Positions 83 through 25,073 of a stretch of 42,633 bases of DNA are shown in pieces. Under the pieces are notes generated by a model, which was not told where the DNA came from, searched no databases, and was given only the letters and a program-made list of their open reading frames with translations. This DNA comes from Nanobdellota archaeon. Its GTDB lineage: Archaea; Nanobdellota; Nanobdellia; Pacearchaeales; GW2011-AR1. Numbering within the stretch: the first letter of the stretch is position 1; every line of letters starts with the position of its first letter. Location of the stretch: NCBI GenBank assembly GCA_018816335.1, contig JAHIVP010000007.1, forward strand, positions 1 through 42,633, read 5' to 3'. Both the position numbers and the translations under genes were made by a program.

Positions 83-274
83 TTTTAAAAATATTATAAT
101 CTATCAAAGATGGATTACTATTTAAATACTTCGTTTTTGAACTAAAATTCAAAATAGTGAATTCTTTTTTACAACCAATTTCATTTAACAAGGCATACAA
201 CCAAATTTATTTGGTTAAAGATGTCATTGATGGATGTTTACATAATTTTAAATAATTTTTTTCTATTCAGGTAT

Positions 275-1081
275 ATGAAACATGGCTTGCTGGATAAATT
301 TGAAAAAGAACTAAAATTGAGAAATTACTCTAGAAAAACTATAAAGGGTTATGTTAATTCTGTTGGTCATTTTTTAGATTATTCAAAAGATAAAGGGATA
401 AATGAAATAACTTTTAGGGAGTATATAATTAATAAATTAGAAACCCAAAATCCTTCTTCTGTTGCTAGAATGTCCTTTGCAGTCAAATTCTTTTTTGAAA
501 ATATTCTTAATATTAATATTAATCTCCAAACAATAAAAAGAAACAAAACTATCCCAAACATACTGACAGCAGAAGAAGTAAAAAAATTAATAGATTTTAC
601 AGTTAATATAAAACATAAATTAATTATTAAACTTCTTTATGGATGTGGGTTGAGAGTTTCAGAATTAGTTAATTTAAAAAAAGAAGACATTAATTTTGAA
701 GAGGGATTGATACATATTAAATTAGCAAAGGGAAGGAAAGATAGATTTGTCAAGATTCCGGATTCTGTTGTTGAAGAGTTGGGAAATTATTGTAAATTGG
801 TGGATCCAGGGATATTATTTGTTTCTGCCCGAGGAGGAAAATTAACAACAGCAACAATTCAGGCAATCTTGAAAAAAGCAGGGAAAAAAGCTGGAATTAA
901 AAAACGAGTTTATCCTCATTTATTAAGACATAGTTTTGCGACTCATCTTCTTGATTCTGGAATTGATTTGAGGATTATACAAAAATTGTTAGGACATTCT
1001 GATATTAAAACAACTCAGGTTTACCTTCAGGTTTCAAACCAGTCAATCAAAAATATTAAAAGCCCTCTTGATTCTATATAG
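275..1081 (+). CDS. xerA: Tyrosine recombinase, XerA/XerC-D-like
   Basis: HLLRHSFATHLL and LLGHSDIKTTQVYLQ catalytic motifs; N-terminal SAM-like core-binding domain; start at MKHGLLDKF preferred over 221. Confidence 0.88.
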   Translation: MKHGLLDKFEKELKLRNYSRKTIKGYVNSVGHFLDYSKDKGINEITFREYIINKLETQNPSSVARMSFAVKFFFENILNININLQTIKRNKTIPNILTAEEVKKLIDFTVNIKHKLIIKLLYGCGLRVSELVNLKKEDINFEEGLIHIKLAKGRKDRFVKIPDSVVEELGNYCKLVDPGILFVSARGGKLTTATIQAILKKAGKKAGIKKRVYPHLLRHSFATHLLDSGIDLRIIQKLLGHSDIKTTQVYLQVSNQSIKNIKSPLDSI

Positions 1082-3386: not shown

Positions 3387-3435
3387 GCTAGACAAACTAA
3401 CAGTTTTTCTAGCGAACTTTTCCCTTGAATTTAAA
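3387..3435 (+). repeat. Dispersed hairpin family 2, copy A
   Basis: GCTAGA-N15-TCTAGC then CGAACTTTTCCCTTGAATTT; also at 7114 and 17462. Confidence 0.7.
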
Positions 3436-4021: not shown

Positions 4022-5713
4022 ATGAAGATACTAACATTACATTGTGATTATATTAAGTTCAAGGCGTTGAAGAAGGCTTTGAAGTCAGTCGAAGATGTGG
4101 AAAGTAAGGAAGTTGTTGTGAAAGGAAATCCGCTTGTTGTTTTGACTGCTGTTGAAAAAGGGGATAATGAAAAAGATTCTGTTGATGATTTGATTAAAGA
4201 AATTGTTGATATTGCTGAAAGAGTAAAGACTGATAATATTGTTCTTTATCCTTATGCTCATTTGAGTTCTAATCTAGGAAGTCCTGATTTAGCTATTGAA
4301 ATTTTGAAGAAAGCTGAGGAAGAATTGAAAAATAAAAATTTTAAAGTTAGTGTTGCTCCGTTTGGTTATTATAAAGAATTTGAGTTGAAGGTTAAGGGAC
4401 ATCCTCTTTCTGAGTTAAGTAGGGAGATTGTTTCTGGGGTTGAAGGTGAGGATGAGGAGAGTTATAACGTAAAGAATTTATTGAGGAGTATTTCAAAAAC
4501 AACTTTAGATAGGGAGAAATTAAAAGATAATGATCATAGGATTATTGGAAGGAATTTGGATTTGTTTAGTTTTAATGAGACTGCTCCTGGAATGGTTTTT
4601 TTTCATAATAATGGTTTGATAATTTGGAATGAAATTATAAAATATTGGAAAGAAGTTCATGAAAAAGCAGGATATCATGAGATAAGGACGCCGCAGATTT
4701 TAGATGAAAAATTGTGGAAGATTTCAGGACATTGGGAAAAATATAAGGAGAATATTTTTTTGACTGAATATGAGAAGAGAATGTTTGCTGTTAAACCAAT
4801 GAATTGTCCTGGAGGAATGTTGGTTTATAAAAATTCTTCTAAATCTTATAAAGATTTTCCATTAAGGGTTGCTGAATTAGGGATTGTTCATAGACAGGAG
4901 CTTTCAGGAGTTTTATCTGGTTTGTTTAGAGTTATTCAGTTTACTCAAGATGATGCTCATATTTATTGTACAGAAGAACAGATTGAAGAAGAAGTTGTAG
5001 GAATAATGAAACTAGTTGATGAGATTTACAAAAAGTTTGGAATGAAATTTAGAGTTGAATTATCTACAAGACCTGAAAAAAGAATTGGGAGTGATGATAT
5101 TTGGGATAAGACTGAAAAGATTTTAGAAAGGGTTTTGAAAAAACAAAAAGTTAATTTTAAGATTAATAAAGGAGATGGGGCATTTTACGGGCCTAAGATT
5201 GATTTTCATTTGAAAGATTCTTTAGGAAGAGAATGGCAAACAGCGACGATTCAATTAGATATGTCAATGCCTGAAAGATTTGAGTTAGAATATACTGATA
5301 AAGATAATAAGAAAAAAAGACCTTTGATGTTGCATCGAACTGTTTTGGGAGGTATTGAAAGATTTTATGGGATTTTAGTTGAGCATTTGAATGGGGCTTT
5401 TCCTACATGGTTATCACCAATACAAGTTAGAGTTATTAATTTTACAGATAGAAATACAAAAGCTGCAGAGAAAATTGTTAAAGAATTAAAAGAAGCTGGA
5501 ATTAGGGTTGATTTTGATTTTGAGTCTACAAGAGTTAATGAGAAAGTTAGAGATGCTTCTATACTCAAAATACCATTTATTGTAACTGTAGGAGACAAGG
5601 AGGAAAAAGATGGGACTTTGGCTGTAAGGACTAGAGATGGTAAACTAAAATACAATGTTAAAGTTACAGATTTTATAAAAGAGATAAAGAAATTAATTGA
5701 AGAAAGAAACTGA
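4022..5713 (+). CDS. thrS: Threonyl-tRNA synthetase, archaeal type with N-terminal editing domain
   Basis: MKILTLHCDYIKFKALKKA editing domain; MNCPGG, HRQELSGVLSGLFRVIQFTQDDAHI, MLHRTVLGGIERFYG class II motifs. Confidence 0.95.
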   Translation: MKILTLHCDYIKFKALKKALKSVEDVESKEVVVKGNPLVVLTAVEKGDNEKDSVDDLIKEIVDIAERVKTDNIVLYPYAHLSSNLGSPDLAIEILKKAEEELKNKNFKVSVAPFGYYKEFELKVKGHPLSELSREIVSGVEGEDEESYNVKNLLRSISKTTLDREKLKDNDHRIIGRNLDLFSFNETAPGMVFFHNNGLIIWNEIIKYWKEVHEKAGYHEIRTPQILDEKLWKISGHWEKYKENIFLTEYEKRMFAVKPMNCPGGMLVYKNSSKSYKDFPLRVAELGIVHRQELSGVLSGLFRVIQFTQDDAHIYCTEEQIEEEVVGIMKLVDEIYKKFGMKFRVELSTRPEKRIGSDDIWDKTEKILERVLKKQKVNFKINKGDGAFYGPKIDFHLKDSLGREWQTATIQLDMSMPERFELEYTDKDNKKKRPLMLHRTVLGGIERFYGILVEHLNGAFPTWLSPIQVRVINFTDRNTKAAEKIVKELKEAGIRVDFDFESTRVNEKVRDASILKIPFIVTVGDKEEKDGTLAVRTRDGKLKYNVKVTDFIKEIKKLIEERN

Positions 5714-6866
5714 ATCTTCTAAATATCTTTTTCCTTTAGAAGTAATTCTATATTTAAAAAAAGATCCCCTATTTGTATAAATTTTCTCAAAAGGTTCAAT
5801 CAATTGATTTTTATTCATCCAGCTAATATGATTTCCTATTAATTTTATATCTTTATTTAAATAATCTGCAATTTCTCTTCTCTTTTGATTTCCTTCTTGT
5901 ATAGATAATAAAACATCCTTATGAAAGACTCGTGTTGGTTTCTTCTTGAAATTTTTAATGATTTCTTTTAATTTTTCTTTTCTTTTTTTATGTAAAGGTT
6001 GAATTATATCATTAAATTTTTTTAAGTTAATAATATGATATATAAATAAACGATATATTGGAGTTTTTCTGTTCTTAGTCTCTTTAAAAACTCTTGATTT
6101 TATTTTTAGTTTTACTAAGATCTCTTGTAAATTATCTACCCATATTTTACTATTTGAAGAAATAGATATTCTTCTTGATCCTGTAAACGTAATACTCCCT
6201 TCGGCGTCAAATGCTGCTCTAACTGCTGCAATAGCAAATTCTTGTTTATTTAAAATGAATTCTTTAATTGGAGTTTCTTCTTTTTTTCCTGAAGGAATTC
6301 CAAAAATTCCATTAAAAATATGAGCTAATATAGAGGATCTTATTATAATTATATATACTCTTTTCTTATTGTATAGCGAGATTCTTTTCTTATCTAATCC
6401 TAGTGAAATAAAAAAGTTTTTTATGATATCCACTAATCCTTTATCTTTGTTTGTAAAAGATATGTTCCAAAAATTATGATTTATATGGCTATCTCCTTTT
6501 ATTAACTCCGAAACATAAATCCAGTTTTTATCAATATTAATTGTTGGTCCAATGTTTAAGAATTTTCCTGTATTATTTAACTTTAGTTCTATTTTGTTTT
6601 GTAGATTATTTAAATTTAAATTTGATATTTTGAATAATTTATTAAAGAGCTTTAAAGGCATTGACCTAGAGCGGTTCCTATATCTACTTAAATTTTTCAT
6701 AGAGATATCTAAATATTTTGACCATTGTGTTAAATTTTTTCCATTAAATAAAAGCTCTACTAGATTTTTAGGTAGTTTAACTTTTGTTTTTTCCGGGAGA
6801 TATTGCAGAATATTAAACTTCATATGATATTATAGTATCTGGAGATTATAAATGTTTATTTAGATT
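5573..6866. mobile_element. Putative homing-endonuclease cassette carrying a replacement 3' end of thrS
   Basis: Last ~47 thrS codons and the convergent LAGLIDADG gene lie upstream of a second readable thrS C-terminal fragment; boundaries approximate. Confidence 0.7.
5693..6823 (-). CDS. LAGLIDADG/DOD-type homing endonuclease, free-standing, with N-terminal HTH-like and C-terminal winged-helix-like parts
   Basis: LIKGDSHIN and AAFDAEGSITF motifs; C-terminus EIADYLNKDIKLIGNHISWM...GSFFKYRITSKGKRYLE. Confidence 0.85.
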   Translation of the reverse strand: MKFNILQYLPEKTKVKLPKNLVELLFNGKNLTQWSKYLDISMKNLSRYRNRSRSMPLKLFNKLFKISNLNLNNLQNKIELKLNNTGKFLNIGPTINIDKNWIYVSELIKGDSHINHNFWNISFTNKDKGLVDIIKNFFISLGLDKKRISLYNKKRVYIIIIRSSILAHIFNGIFGIPSGKKEETPIKEFILNKQEFAIAAVRAAFDAEGSITFTGSRRISISSNSKIWVDNLQEILVKLKIKSRVFKETKNRKTPIYRLFIYHIINLKKFNDIIQPLHKKRKEKLKEIIKNFKKKPTRVFHKDVLLSIQEGNQKRREIADYLNKDIKLIGNHISWMNKNQLIEPFEKIYTNRGSFFKYRITSKGKRYLEDSVSFFN

Positions 6867-7012
6867 ATGAAGTAGTTATTGTTATTGGAGATAAAGAAGA
6901 GAAAAATAAGACAATTGCTTTGAGAAGGAGGGGGAAAGGGGCGGTGGAGTATGGGGTTGAGCTTGATGGATTTATTGGAGAGATAAAAAAAGAAATAAAG
7001 CTCCGAACTTGA
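6866..7012 (+). pseudogene. Displaced 3' fragment of thrS
   Basis: Translates YEVVIVIGDKEEKNKTIALRRRGKGAVEYGVELDGFIGEIKKEIKLRT*, about 21/49 identical to the intact ThrRS tail IPFIVTVGDKEEKDGTLAVRTRDGKLKYNVKVTDFIKEIKKLIEERN*. Confidence 0.85.
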
Positions 7013-7075
7013 TTTCATCAAAGTTCTTCGCTAAAAGATTTATTAATTGAAAAAATTTTAAAGATAGGTTATCAG
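7006..7075 (+). repeat. Dispersed hairpin family 1, copy a
   Basis: AACTTGAT-TTC-ATCA(A)AGTT, CTTCGC, then GATTTATTAATTG...AAAGATAGGTTATCAG. Confidence 0.7.
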
Positions 7076-11463: not shown

Positions 11464-11717
11464 TGAATTAAGTATGGGAAGGTATTTATATAGATTATTT
11501 TAGTGGAATGTATATATTAAGAATTAATCTGTTCTAATTTAAATCTTCCCACGCAAATCCGCTCGCAAAGGCTCGCTTTCCATTTGCTTTCCTTGAAAAT
11601 TATTAATACAAATATTTTATTAATAAAGTTAAGTGAGAGTGAGAATGATTTTATGAGTGGAGCTCGAGCATATTTTTAAAAGGATTATTTTTTAAAGTGA
11701 TTATTTCTATGTTGAGT

Positions 11718-13322
11718 ATGAAGATTCCAAAGAAAAATGAGATAAGAAAACCTTCGAAGACAAAGGCTGGGGTGACGCCTGTTGCAGTTATACTCCCGCC
11801 TCAGAAGTGTAAGCACGGGACTTGCTTGTTTTGTCCGACACTTGATGTTCCTCAGAGTTATACTCCTAAGAGTCCTGCGATTATGAGGGCTATGTCTTTG
11901 AGATATGATGCTGGAAAACAAGTTAAAGCTAGGATTAAATCATTTGAAGTAATGAATCATCCAACAGATAAAATTGAATTAATAATTATGGGAGGGACTT
12001 TTTTTGATTATGATAAAAAGTTTCAGGAGAGATTTGTGAAAGAGTGTTTTGATGCTATGAATGAAAAAGTTTCTAAGAATATTAAAGAGGCTCAAAAGAT
12101 TAATGAAACTGCTAAACATAGATGTGTTGCTTTGTGTTTAGAAACAAGGCCTGATAGTTGTTCTGATAAAGATATAGAAAGAGCTTTGAATTTTGGGGCT
12201 ACAAGAGTTGAGTTAGGAGTTCAGATTATTGATGATAAGATTTATAAGAAAGTTGGAAGAGGACATAGTGTTAAAGATGTTGTTGATGCAACAAAAAGAT
12301 TAAGAGATGCTGGATTTAAGATTGGTTATCATTTAATGCCAGGACTTCCAGGAAGTAATATTAAACATGATTTAGATATGATTAAGAAAGTTTTTTCTGA
12401 CTCGAAGTTTAAACCAGATCAAATTAAGATTTATCCGTGTCAGGTTATTAAAGGAGCTGAGTTAGAGAAATTGTTTTATGAAGGAAAATATAAACCTTAT
12501 ACAGAAGAAGAAACTAAGAATTTGATTATTGAGATTTTGAAGATTGTTCCATCTTATTGTAGGGTTATGAGGATTATGAGAGAGATTCCTCCTGAATATA
12601 TGACTGCTGGTTTGAAGAGGATTGATTTGAGAAAAGATATTACAGAGGAGTTGAGGAAGAATGTTAAAGATGTCAAGGAGATAAGGTTTAGGGAGATAGG
12701 ATTTAATTCTGGTGTGAGAGATTTTAATTGGAAGATTGAGAAGATTGAATATGATGCTAGTGGAGGAAAAGAGATATTTTTGCAAGCTGTAAATAAAGAT
12801 AATATTTTGTTTGGTTTGTTGAGGTTGAGGATTAAAGGGAAGAAGAATTTAAAGATAGGTTATGACACTAAAAGTGCAAATGCTAATAATAAGATTGGAA
12901 AAAAAGAAATGGGTTCGAGCGGAACAGAACCCAACTGTTTGATACGCAGTAATAATATATGTAATAAATCAAAATATTTAAATGTTTTGCTTAATTCAAG
13001 TAATAGTCGCGTCGGGATGGCGGAACGTCCAACGCAACTGTTTGATACGCAGTGCCCTTCGGGGTTTGTGGGTTCGAGTCCCACTCCCGGCGCGGCGATA
13101 ATCAGAGAATTACATGTTTATGGTCAGGCTGAGAAGTTGGGAAGTTTGGGAAAAGGGGTGCAACATAAAGGTATTGGTAAAGAGTTGATGAAAAAAGCTG
13201 AGGAAATTTGTTTAGGGGAAGGGGTAGGAGAGGTTAGGGTTATTTCGGGGGTGGGGGTGCGGGGGTATTATAGAAAGTTGGGGTATAGATTAAAAAATAA
13301 TTATATGGTTAAAAGAATATAA
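11718..13322 (+). CDS. elp3: Elp3 family radical SAM/GNAT tRNA U34-modification enzyme, with an ~80-aa in-frame insertion in the linker
   Basis: CKHGTCLFCP cluster motif, IMGGTFFDYD, LCLETRPD, VELGVQ; C-term IIRELHVYGQ, GIGKELMKKAEEI, VRGYYRKLGY. Confidence 0.92.
   Translation: MKIPKKNEIRKPSKTKAGVTPVAVILPPQKCKHGTCLFCPTLDVPQSYTPKSPAIMRAMSLRYDAGKQVKARIKSFEVMNHPTDKIELIIMGGTFFDYDKKFQERFVKECFDAMNEKVSKNIKEAQKINETAKHRCVALCLETRPDSCSDKDIERALNFGATRVELGVQIIDDKIYKKVGRGHSVKDVVDATKRLRDAGFKIGYHLMPGLPGSNIKHDLDMIKKVFSDSKFKPDQIKIYPCQVIKGAELEKLFYEGKYKPYTEEETKNLIIEILKIVPSYCRVMRIMREIPPEYMTAGLKRIDLRKDITEELRKNVKDVKEIRFREIGFNSGVRDFNWKIEKIEYDASGGKEIFLQAVNKDNILFGLLRLRIKGKKNLKIGYDTKSANANNKIGKKEMGSSGTEPNCLIRSNNICNKSKYLNVLLNSSNSRVGMAERPTQLFDTQCPSGFVGSSPTPGAAIIRELHVYGQAEKLGSLGKGVQHKGIGKELMKKAEEICLGEGVGEVRVISGVGVRGYYRKLGYRLKNNYMVKRI
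12911..12950 (+). repeat. Shuffled partial tRNA-like fragment
   Basis: GGGTTCGAG + CGGAAC + CAACTGTTTGATACGCAGT; the last 19 nt repeat exactly at 13035-13053. Confidence 0.65.
13011..13092 (+). tRNA. Type II tRNA-like sequence (Leu/Ser-like body), possibly degenerate, inside elp3
   Basis: Acceptor GTCGGGA/TCCCGGC, T-arm GTGGG-TTCGAGT-CCCAC, long variable arm CCC-TTCG-GGG, ACTGT-TTGATAC-GCAGT anticodon arm; D-loop lacks the GG pair. Confidence 0.6.
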
Positions 13323-13467: not shown

Positions 13468-13884
13468 TTAAGGTGTTGCTGCAACACAAGTTGTTTGACC
13501 ACTAGTAACTGGACATGTGTCGCCTGTTGTTAAAACAGCTGTTACTTCTACTGTATCATCTGCATTTACATCAGCACTACAAACTGCTGTTGCAAGTTCT
13601 GCTGGAGCTGCTGTACATGGTGCTACACTAGCACCTTCATTAATAACTATTTTTAGAGATGCTACTTCTCCTTGACCTGCATTTCTAATAATATTAACAT
13701 TACCAGTATCTCCTGCTGTACAAGATGTAACTTCTAGATCTAAATTAATACATCCTGATTCAAGTGCTCCTGCAGTGTCTTTTATACTTGGCTTTAGAAC
13801 AGACCATAGAATTAAAACTGCAGCAATTGCAATAATTATTATTAGAACAGTTGTGACAACTGGACTTAGAGCTTTTTTGTTCAC
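13468..13884 (-). CDS. Archaeal type IV pilin-like protein
   Basis: MNKKALSPVVTTVLIIIIAIAAVLILW class III signal/pilin N-terminus. Confidence 0.8.
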   Translation of the reverse strand: MNKKALSPVVTTVLIIIIAIAAVLILWSVLKPSIKDTAGALESGCINLDLEVTSCTAGDTGNVNIIRNAGQGEVASLKIVINEGASVAPCTAAPAELATAVCSADVNADDTVEVTAVLTTGDTCPVTSGQTTCVAATP

Positions 13885-13953
13885 TTTTTTCCTCCTTTTG
13901 ATTATTTAAAATATAAATTAAAACCCTAGAAAATTAAAGGGAATAAAAATAAA

Positions 13954-14430
13954 TTAACTACATGTGTATGGTGTTCCTGATGGATTACATACTTGTTCTT
14001 CGCCGTTTTCTAGTGTGATTATAGCTGCTACATCGATTTCATAATCTGTTGTAATACCTATAGTTGCTAATGTTTGAGTACAGTCTGTGTAATCTTTGCC
14101 TGTTGCTGTAGTTCCGAAAGTGTGTGTTTCTAAAACTTCCTGGGAATGTATACACTTAGCTGTTGGAACATCATCAATATCTTTTTGGATTAATAAAGTA
14201 ACTCCTGCTATATCTCCTCCACCTGCTCCTCTTCTAACTGTTACTCTATTATTTGTGGTATCACAACCTGTAACTTCAAGTTGAACATCTAAACAGCTTC
14301 CTGTTAGAGCATTTCCTGTTTGTTCTATCATTGGACGGATAACTACCCAGAGAATGATAACTGCAGCTATTGATATTAATATAATCAATACAGTTGTAAC
14401 GACAGCGCTTATGGCTTTCTTGTTTAACAT
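13954..14430 (-). CDS. Archaeal type IV pilin-like protein
   Basis: MLNKKAISAVVTTVLIILISIAAVIILW; near-identical N-terminus to the next gene. Confidence 0.8.
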   Translation of the reverse strand: MLNKKAISAVVTTVLIILISIAAVIILWVVIRPMIEQTGNALTGSCLDVQLEVTGCDTTNNRVTVRRGAGGGDIAGVTLLIQKDIDDVPTAKCIHSQEVLETHTFGTTATGKDYTDCTQTLATIGITTDYEIDVAAIITLENGEEQVCNPSGTPYTCS

Positions 14431-14457
14431 TTTACCTCCTTTTGATTAAAATGAAAA

Positions 14458-14958
14458 TCAGGTACTACATAAGTATGGTGTTCCTGATGGATTACATACT
14501 TTTTCGTCGCCGTTTTCTAGTGTTATTATAGCTGCTATATCTGCTTTGTCGTCTGGGTTTATTTGAATTGGATTTCCTGACTCAGTAGTAGCACATTCTG
14601 GACTTATTGGATGTGTTGGAGTGCTGGTATCTGGAGAGATATAAAACTTCTTTGTTTGTAAGGGAGTAACTGCAAAATAACAGTTTATTGTTGGAGTACT
14701 TTCAACACTTTGTTCAATTAAAAATTTTACACCTGCTATGTCTCCTCCTCCTGCTCCTCTTTCAAAGGTTACTGATTCATCAGTAATATTACAATTTGTA
14801 ACTTCTAATTGAACATCTAAACAGCTTCCGGTTAAAGCGTTTCCTGTTTGTTCAATCATTGGACGGATAACTATCCATAGGATGATAACTGCAGCGATTG
14901 ATATTAGTATAATCAATACAGTTGTTACGACAGCGCTTATGGCTTTCTTGTTTAACAT
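14458..14958 (-). CDS. Archaeal type IV pilin-like protein
   Basis: MLNKKAISAVVTTVLIILISIAAVIILW; shared CNPSGTPYxC C-terminus with 13954-14430. Confidence 0.8.
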   Translation of the reverse strand: MLNKKAISAVVTTVLIILISIAAVIILWIVIRPMIEQTGNALTGSCLDVQLEVTNCNITDESVTFERGAGGGDIAGVKFLIEQSVESTPTINCYFAVTPLQTKKFYISPDTSTPTHPISPECATTESGNPIQINPDDKADIAAIITLENGDEKVCNPSGTPYLCST

Positions 14959-23987: not shown

Positions 23988-24257
23988 ATGAAAGGAATAG
24001 TAAAGTTTTTCAGTCAAGAAAAGGAATTTGGATTCATAGCTGCAGATGACGGAAAAGAAGTTTTTGTTCATAAGTCAGCGCTAGATGATGGTGTAACTAT
24101 AGATAAGGATGATAAAGTTACATTTGATGTTGAAGAAGGCGATAGAGGACCAAAAGCTGTTAATGTGAAGAAAGAAGGATCAGCTGAAGCAGAAGATGAA
24201 GAAGAAGATGAAGAAGAAGCAGAAGAAGAAGAAACTGAAATGAAAGAAGCAGCTTAG
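23988..24257 (+). CDS. Cold-shock domain protein with acidic tail
   Basis: GIVKFFSQEKEFGFIAADDGKEVFVHKSAL CSD motif; Glu/Asp-rich C-terminus. Confidence 0.92.
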   Translation: MKGIVKFFSQEKEFGFIAADDGKEVFVHKSALDDGVTIDKDDKVTFDVEEGDRGPKAVNVKKEGSAEAEDEEEDEEEAEEEETEMKEAA

Positions 24258-24347
24258 TTAGATTTTTAATTTATTTTATTTTTAATTTATTGTTATTTTT
24301 CTTGGGGGGGTTTTGATAAATTTATATAGTGGAATTTTCACTTAATT

Positions 24348-24383
24348 TTATGGGATTTTACTTAATAGGATTGGGATTGAATG
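24348..24383 (+). repeat. 36-bp direct repeat, copy 1 (displaced dph5 5' end)
   Basis: TTATGGGATTTTACTTAATAGGATTGGGATTGAATG, identical to 25038-25073; TATA AAATTTATATAG upstream. Confidence 0.95.
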
Positions 24384-24432
24384 TTGTTCTGAATAACAAT
24401 TAATCTTAAAAACTTGAGATCTATTTATTATA

Positions 24433-24954
24433 ATGGAAGAAGTTTCAATGATTACTTTTGATAATCTTGAGGTTCCAAATGCAAGGGATGTTTTGGATAG
24501 GCAATGGACAGGGTGGGATATGGAGGGCGGAAGGATATTTTATGAAAACTATGCACAAACAGGAGAGTCTGTACATCAAGAAGTTGGATTAAGTGCAGGG
24601 CCTTATGCTCTTGTTGCTTTAGCAAACAGGTTTAATGTAAGAAAAACCACCTCTTATGAAGGGGAGAGTAAAAAAGATGAAGAGGGATTTGTATTTGATG
24701 GAGTTCTTTGGATTCATCCTCAGCAGCAGACAGAAGGAGAATGTGGTGGTGGAGGTAGAATTCTTTGCTGGGTTCCTGAAAATATAAATGATTTAACAAA
24801 ATTAATCAGAGGAGATTGTAAAACCTCTGGGGAATTTGAAGCAAGATTGGTAGCTATTAGGAGAAGTTATGAACAGCAAAGAATAGAAAAAGCAGAAGCG
24901 AAAGATAGAGCGTACACAGCTGGATTAAGGGAAGAGGATCTTGCCGGAAGATGA
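24433..24954 (+). CDS. Hypothetical protein on the dph5-associated insertion
   Basis: 173-aa ORF, no recognised family; lies between the 36-bp repeats. Confidence 0.65.
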   Translation: MEEVSMITFDNLEVPNARDVLDRQWTGWDMEGGRIFYENYAQTGESVHQEVGLSAGPYALVALANRFNVRKTTSYEGESKKDEEGFVFDGVLWIHPQQQTEGECGGGGRILCWVPENINDLTKLIRGDCKTSGEFEARLVAIRRSYEQQRIEKAEAKDRAYTAGLREEDLAGR

Positions 24955-25037
24955 AATGCTAGACATGGCTCACCATTATAGTTTTATTTAATATCTTAGA
25001 ATTCTAAAGATTTATTAATTAACTTTTTTCTATATAA

Positions 25038-25073
25038 TTATGGGATTTTACTTAATAGGATTGGGATTGAATG
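25038..25073 (+). repeat. 36-bp direct repeat, copy 2 (start of intact dph5)
   Basis: Same 36 nt as 24348-24383. Confidence 0.95.

Follow-up and report, generated by a model that had tools for sequence, protein, structure and literature searches.

How does the beginning of a conserved gene come to stand twice in succession, once at the head of the intact gene and once a short distance upstream where it leads nowhere? The question is raised by dph5 of an uncultured Nanobdellota archaeon with a small genome, in contig JAHIVP010000007.1 of assembly GCA_018816335.1, from which a stretch of 42,633 nucleotides, here called the window, was analysed. We describe the locus and the gene lying between the two starts, then further genes of this genome at which the architecture recurs, and we weigh the ways in which it may have arisen.

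Two starts for one dph5 gene

The 36-bp sequence TTATGGGATTTTACTTAATAGGATTGGGATTGAATG is present in two exact copies at a spacing of 690 bp, each covering the dph5 start from -2 to +34, so that the insert is bounded by long direct repeats (Table 1). By a rough estimate from base composition, such an exact pair is expected by chance ~1e-11 times in the window and ~1e-8 times in the genome, and a chance repeat was ruled out by the 36-bp length. The downstream copy opens the intact diphthine synthase gene, and the upstream copy translates as MGFYLIGLGLNVVLNNN followed by a stop codon, a 17-codon dead-end ORF. Outside the 36 bp the sequences around the two copies are unrelated on both sides, with no homology running into the spacer, and the arrangement is therefore not a tandem duplication of dph5. 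Neither a transposase nor terminal inverted repeats were found in the cassette or at its ends, which led us to reject a DNA transposon, and no integrase is encoded there, the sole sizeable ORF being the 173-aa gene, which belongs to no known family.

When 501 gene starts likely to have promoters of their own were piled up, a TATA box beginning at -29 relative to the start codon emerged as a genome-wide feature, which implies that most transcripts in this organism are probably leaderless. When scored against the genome's own motif, three promoter-like starts follow one another at the locus, those of the remnant, the 173-aa gene and intact dph5, with boxes at -29, -28 and -29, respectively, and the first of these leads solely to the 17-codon ORF. 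Intact dph5 has a new -29 box and a new start with its reading frame kept, and the old box and start are stranded. These results bear out the first-pass annotation of the sequence, which had reported the repeat pair, a truncated Dph5 start at the first copy, the intact gene at the second and TATA-like boxes before both. Its reading of the interval as a gene cassette that inserted in the 5' end of dph5 and regenerated the gene is also supported, with similar duplicated ends around cargo recurring across the genome (see below).

Table 1. Features of the dph5 and thrS loci, in window coordinates
Feature	Position	Strand	Evidence
Cold-shock-domain gene (csp), left flank of presumed empty site	23988..24257	+	PF00313 E=1.6e-19
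Native-type TATA box TTTATATAGT, at -29 of stranded dph5 start	24320..24329	+	90th percentile of 501 starts
Repeat copy 1, stranded old dph5 start: MGFYLIGLGLN, then VVLNNN and stop out of the gene	24348..24383	+	exact repeat; similarity ends at 36 bp
Interval between copies, no dph5 similarity	24384..25037	+	sequence comparison
TATA-like box CTTAAAAACT of 173-aa cargo gene, -28 to -29	24404..24413	+	84th percentile
173-aa cargo gene, no known family	24433..24954	+	ORF; distant homologue in G045 (DAOWFF010000057.1)
Replacement TATA-like box TTTATTAATT of intact dph5, -29	25011..25020	+	77th percentile
Repeat copy 2, functional dph5 start	25038..25073	+	exact repeat
Intact dph5 (diphthine synthase), host gene, 231 aa	25040..25735	+	TIGR00522 E=1.3e-48, above cut-off; TP_methylase
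thrS, host of mirror-image 3' event	4022..5713	+	TIGR00418
LAGLIDADG gene, cargo of thrS 3' event	5693..6823	-	PF14528 E=1.3e-14
Stranded old thrS 3' end	6866..7012	+	48% identity to last 43 ThrS residues; 1161 bp past thrS stop

The gene between the repeats had been termed an orphan. The 173-aa ORF is present as described, with its own promoter-like box and as a single copy in the genome, but it is not a strict orphan since one homologue, 31-32% identical, occurs in another genus (genome G045). The gene is rare and was detected in 2 of 144 relatives, 2 of 211 genomes of the order and 1 of 382 of the phylum, in samples that overlap and with its own genome counted. The protein yielded no match in Pfam, NCBIfam or PADLOC and no credible match in PHROG, no homologues were found in viral contigs, phages or plasmids, and fold predictions with pLDDT values of 49 and 41 were not usable and gave no confident fold. 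A homing endonuclease cassette at dph5 was rejected on these grounds, the cargo having neither a family match nor a confident fold, as was a restriction-modification unit, no such family having been matched.

The homologue in G045 lies between a member of the family of the window's 165-aa gene and a methyltransferase gene, close to thrS and elp3. The window carries the order thrS, 165-aa gene, methyltransferase and elp3, with other genes intervening and without the 173-aa gene at that place. Occurrence of the family at two different places in two genera fits a mobile gene, although two points prove little. The elp3-like ORF of the window (11697-13322) contains an in-frame tRNA gene on the same strand (13011-13093; tRNA-Ile GAT by ARAGORN) and a 23-bp near-repeat at 12928 and 13031; its G045 homologue lacks that stretch.

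Conservation of the cargo gene and both repeats in relatives, against which the first-pass annotation had set its reading, was not observed. At the dph5 loci of about 40 relatives there is a single start each and no second one, and the 173-aa gene is absent from all those examined. The closest Dph5 among 191 family genomes is 57-58% identical, with no close relative among them, and relatives at or below 58% have one start. A Dph5 scan of genome contigs for an empty site gave no match, and no exact 29-mer of the dph5 start was found in viral contigs. In genome G087, from a different family, the first ~100 bp of dph5 are exactly identical on two contigs, at C83:1-96(-) and C42:737 (L102 and L107), and the upstream sequences differ, with the switch right at the dph5 start codon; this difference is due either to variation between strains or to a similar event.

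Insertions that replace gene termini and strand the old ones

The genome, a single MAG that is 82% complete, was scanned over 899.7 of its 899.9 kb, with genes taken as simple ORFs, and the first and last ~60 bp (or 45 aa) of every gene were sought again just outside that gene. Ten strong and two weaker duplicated gene ends were found in the ~900 kb, mostly of conserved genes and nearly always around short cargo; paralogues were excluded and events were curated by eye after the scans, so that the count of 12 is approximate. At a score of at least 25, the DNA scan yielded matches on the expected side for dph5, an SbcD-like phosphoesterase, PCNA, rad50, scpA and a HerA-like ATPase. These lie well above the wrong-side and mid-gene control scans, which produced about two scattered matches, one of which lies in a pair of tandem paralogues. 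With the protein scan we also detected thrS, RuBisCO, cyaB and a second HerA-like gene, the last with a spacing of 159 bp and no cargo gene, and a further event, on contig C24, came from the raw repeat scan. The same scan detected no events in two large contigs from related genomes, G011 (576 kb) and G002 (511 kb). Moreover, the detached N-terminal copy of the SbcD-like gene occurs in one of the 98 family genomes carrying the gene, namely its own.

In every event the copy beside the cargo runs on into the intact gene, and the orphaned copy is found past the cargo. The likening of dph5 to a mirror-image 3' event at thrS was also confirmed, the stranded thrS end being real (Table 1). The cassettes are mostly 0.4-1.3 kb and their contents are diverse. 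The SbcD-like phosphoesterase gene has undergone two successive insertions, each with its own old start left, bringing first a gene for a nucleotidyltransferase protein together with a small gene and then a MazE-like/PIN pair (VapBC-like). Fic is the cargo at rad50 and a 110-aa orphan that at PCNA; LAGLIDADG genes lie beside the regenerated 3' ends of thrS and RuBisCO, and small orphans are carried in the C24 and C5 events. At cyaB there are genes for a HEPN-like protein, a nucleotidyltransferase and a histone-like product and at scpA two lipoprotein-like orphans, where the HEPN-like and lipoprotein-like labels come from reading the sequence and have no family match behind them. The detached ends measure ~11-46 codons despite host proteins of up to 682 aa, and hence the observed insertions are restricted to gene ends and do not spread along the genes.

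For ten pairs of ends that were compared there are 29, 11 and 45 differences at first, second and third codon positions, respectively, with a third-position excess at p=1.5e-4. No stops interrupt the remnants that were compared, their residue changes are mostly conservative, and dph5 is alone among the pairs in having identical copies. Such a pattern is expected where both ends evolved in working genes, and in the diverged events the cargo probably brought with it a functional end taken from a diverged homologue, the remnant being the old native end. The core sequence differs from event to event, none of the cassettes examined carries an integrase, and no shared end motif was found.

Several raw matches were removed or set aside. 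The hydrolase genes on C36 and the pilin-like genes on C37 and C15 are tandem paralogues that mimic duplicated starts in the raw scan, and a 66-bp promoter repeat at C5:43605 was omitted from the count as ambiguous. Also ambiguous and uncounted is a 52-bp exact repeat of promoter and start codon on C35 (L067/L091, G000:C35; positions 23383 and 24255), which precedes two different small proteins. The window itself contains tandem pilin-like genes (13468-14958, minus strand), of which the two larger share near-identical N- and C-terminal coding ends with diverged middles. A further HerA-like ATPase piece, in L038 (G000:C5; 14349-16894, minus strand), begins with an intein splicing C-terminal motif and is directly preceded by a 280-aa gene, an arrangement that looks like a gene split at an intein.

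Candidate routes of insertion

The explanation that we favour, with a probability of about 0.65, is that an imported cassette carrying a gene, a promoter and a dph5 5' end replaced the native start by recombination at the start of dph5. The ancestral order would have been csp, native promoter and dph5, and the incoming DNA would have consisted of the 173-aa gene followed by the replacement promoter and the replacement 5' end. Once this DNA had recombined into the start of dph5, the body of the gene would be driven from the imported promoter and start, such that the conserved gene stays intact, and the old promoter and first 36 bp would remain beyond the cargo, reading the dead-end ORF. As a candidate mechanism, the recombination most likely relied on homology, or on a short core, within the conserved gene end at one junction, with a non-homologous or short-core join at the opposite one; at thrS and RuBisCO, breaks made by the LAGLIDADG homing endonucleases possibly started the recombination. 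Retention may have been favoured by the regenerated host gene together with potentially addictive or selfish cargoes (VapBC-like, nucleotidyltransferase, Fic and LAGLIDADG). We infer the direction, insertion and not loss, as well as the route and the origin of the end in another genome.

A transposition-like insertion, in which staggered cutting and fill-in produced a 36-bp target-site duplication and no end was imported, is unlikely but accounts directly for the exact identity of the two dph5 copies; for this reason dph5 alone cannot separate a close donor, or a foreign end, from plain target-site duplication. Precedents exist among restriction-modification units, for which insertion with long target duplication has been reported (Nobusato et al. 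2000, cited in PMC1643837 and PMC3874152). A long target duplication, however, predicts copies that are identical when made, and among the compared pairs this is seen at dph5 alone; the mostly third-position and conservative differences of the diverged events are unlike those of a decaying duplicate. The cassette lacks a transposase and terminal inverted repeats, and the two dph5 copies have different promoters, although a duplication restricted to -2 to +34 would have the same outcome.

It is rather improbable that a tyrosine recombinase acting in trans used the 36 bp as an attachment core, the cassette being then a non-autonomous element of the dusA/prfC type. The genome does encode two tyrosine recombinases, an element-provided promoter and N-terminus is the outcome reported for dusA and prfC elements (PMC8409611), and the detached ends found are all short and restricted to the termini of genes. 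Against this, the examined cassettes carry no integrase, the two enzymes of the genome (PF00589) are located elsewhere and are probably of the housekeeping Xer type, and the core is different in each event, so that one enzyme would not recognise all of them. Alternatively, the order csp, 173-aa gene and dph5 could be ancestral and the 36-bp copy before the 173-aa gene a newcomer, inserted as templated filler. This is very unlikely given the strong and well-placed TATA box before the stranded start, the recurrence of the architecture at many genes, and the absence of the 173-aa gene from the relatives' dph5 loci examined and from nearly everywhere else. An assembly chimera has to be considered for any metagenome assembly and is the most remote of these explanations: a 36-bp junction repeat is shorter than the long k-mers that are usual in metagenome assembly, joins induced by repeats cannot explain all of a dozen loci whose copies have diverged, and the host genes remain intact.

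Returning to the imported cassette, about a dozen comparable insertions were seen at the termini of further core genes, which suggests that genes are repeatedly gained in a manner that leaves the target unbroken. More tentatively, the events could represent a distinct class of very small cassettes, active in this lineage, that inserts specifically at core-gene ends, supplies either a new promoter with a start or a new 3' end, so that the target survives, and moves toxin-antitoxin, Fic, LAGLIDADG and unknown genes by one shared recombination system; we consider this possible but doubtful.

Relation to known elements and dispersed repeats

Integrative elements are known at the 5' ends of dusA (IMEVchUSA3) and prfC (SXT) and at the 3' ends of trmE and yicC (PMC8409611). 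With the dusA element, the host gene receives a new promoter and an N-terminus that has diverged, at 61% identity over 35 residues (PMC8409611). The cassettes described here resemble the dusA and prfC elements in striking the end of a conserved gene, supplying promoter and N-terminus and leaving the host gene readable. However, those elements are large and have a dedicated integrase and one target gene, whereas here the insertions are mostly 0.4-1.3 kb, lack an integrase and involve many genes. Restriction-modification insertions with long target duplication are also comparable, being small and potentially addictive units flanked by direct repeats far longer than transposon duplications, with no transposase named. 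Their duplications, described as copies of the target of ~100 bp (PMC3874152), are longer than the 36 bp at dph5 and differ from repeats placed on gene ends and, apart from dph5, the copies compared here are diverged with a coding-type spectrum and the cargo is not restriction-modification.

Homology-facilitated illegitimate recombination is known from competent bacteria and from conjugation in E. coli (PMC3240628). It does not in itself explain why all the detached ends are short. The thrS and RuBisCO events, with LAGLIDADG next to the regenerated 3' end, recall free-standing homing endonuclease genes, but dph5 and most of the other events have no recognisable endonuclease in their cargo. Nothing specific on such a pattern in DPANN archaea emerged from the literature searched.

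Small compact genomes offer little non-essential DNA in which a foreign gene can land, a problem that is solved when the target gene has its end exchanged and is not disrupted. If general, the process would provide an entry route for toxin-antitoxin, Fic, LAGLIDADG and orphan genes at core-gene ends in minimal archaea, and the promoters and termini of essential genes would be silently swapped. Since the stranded remnants form a readable fossil of each event, the phenomenon can be counted and can be tested by comparing strains.

Two dispersed intergenic repeat families were seen, neither of them at the dph5 cassette. One is a ~46-bp element, consisting of a GCTAGA...TCTAGC inverted repeat followed by GAACTTTYCCYTTGAATTT, present in the window at 3387 and 7114, two copies that flank the thrS region, and at C8:7731, C18:706 and C24:1986. 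The other, TTTATTAATTGRAAAARATTTTAAAGATAGGTTGTGAG, occurs in the window at 7038 and 39210 (plus strand) and at five or more other sites in the genome, often after a hairpin, and one copy lies directly 3' of the stranded thrS end. The window also encodes an XerA-like tyrosine recombinase (221-1081, plus strand), one of two in the genome. Finally, the 3030-bp contig L062 (G000:C30) encodes an AAA-type ATPase-like protein of 490 aa and has 141 identical bases at both ends, which may mark either a circle of 2.9 kb or a tandem repeat.
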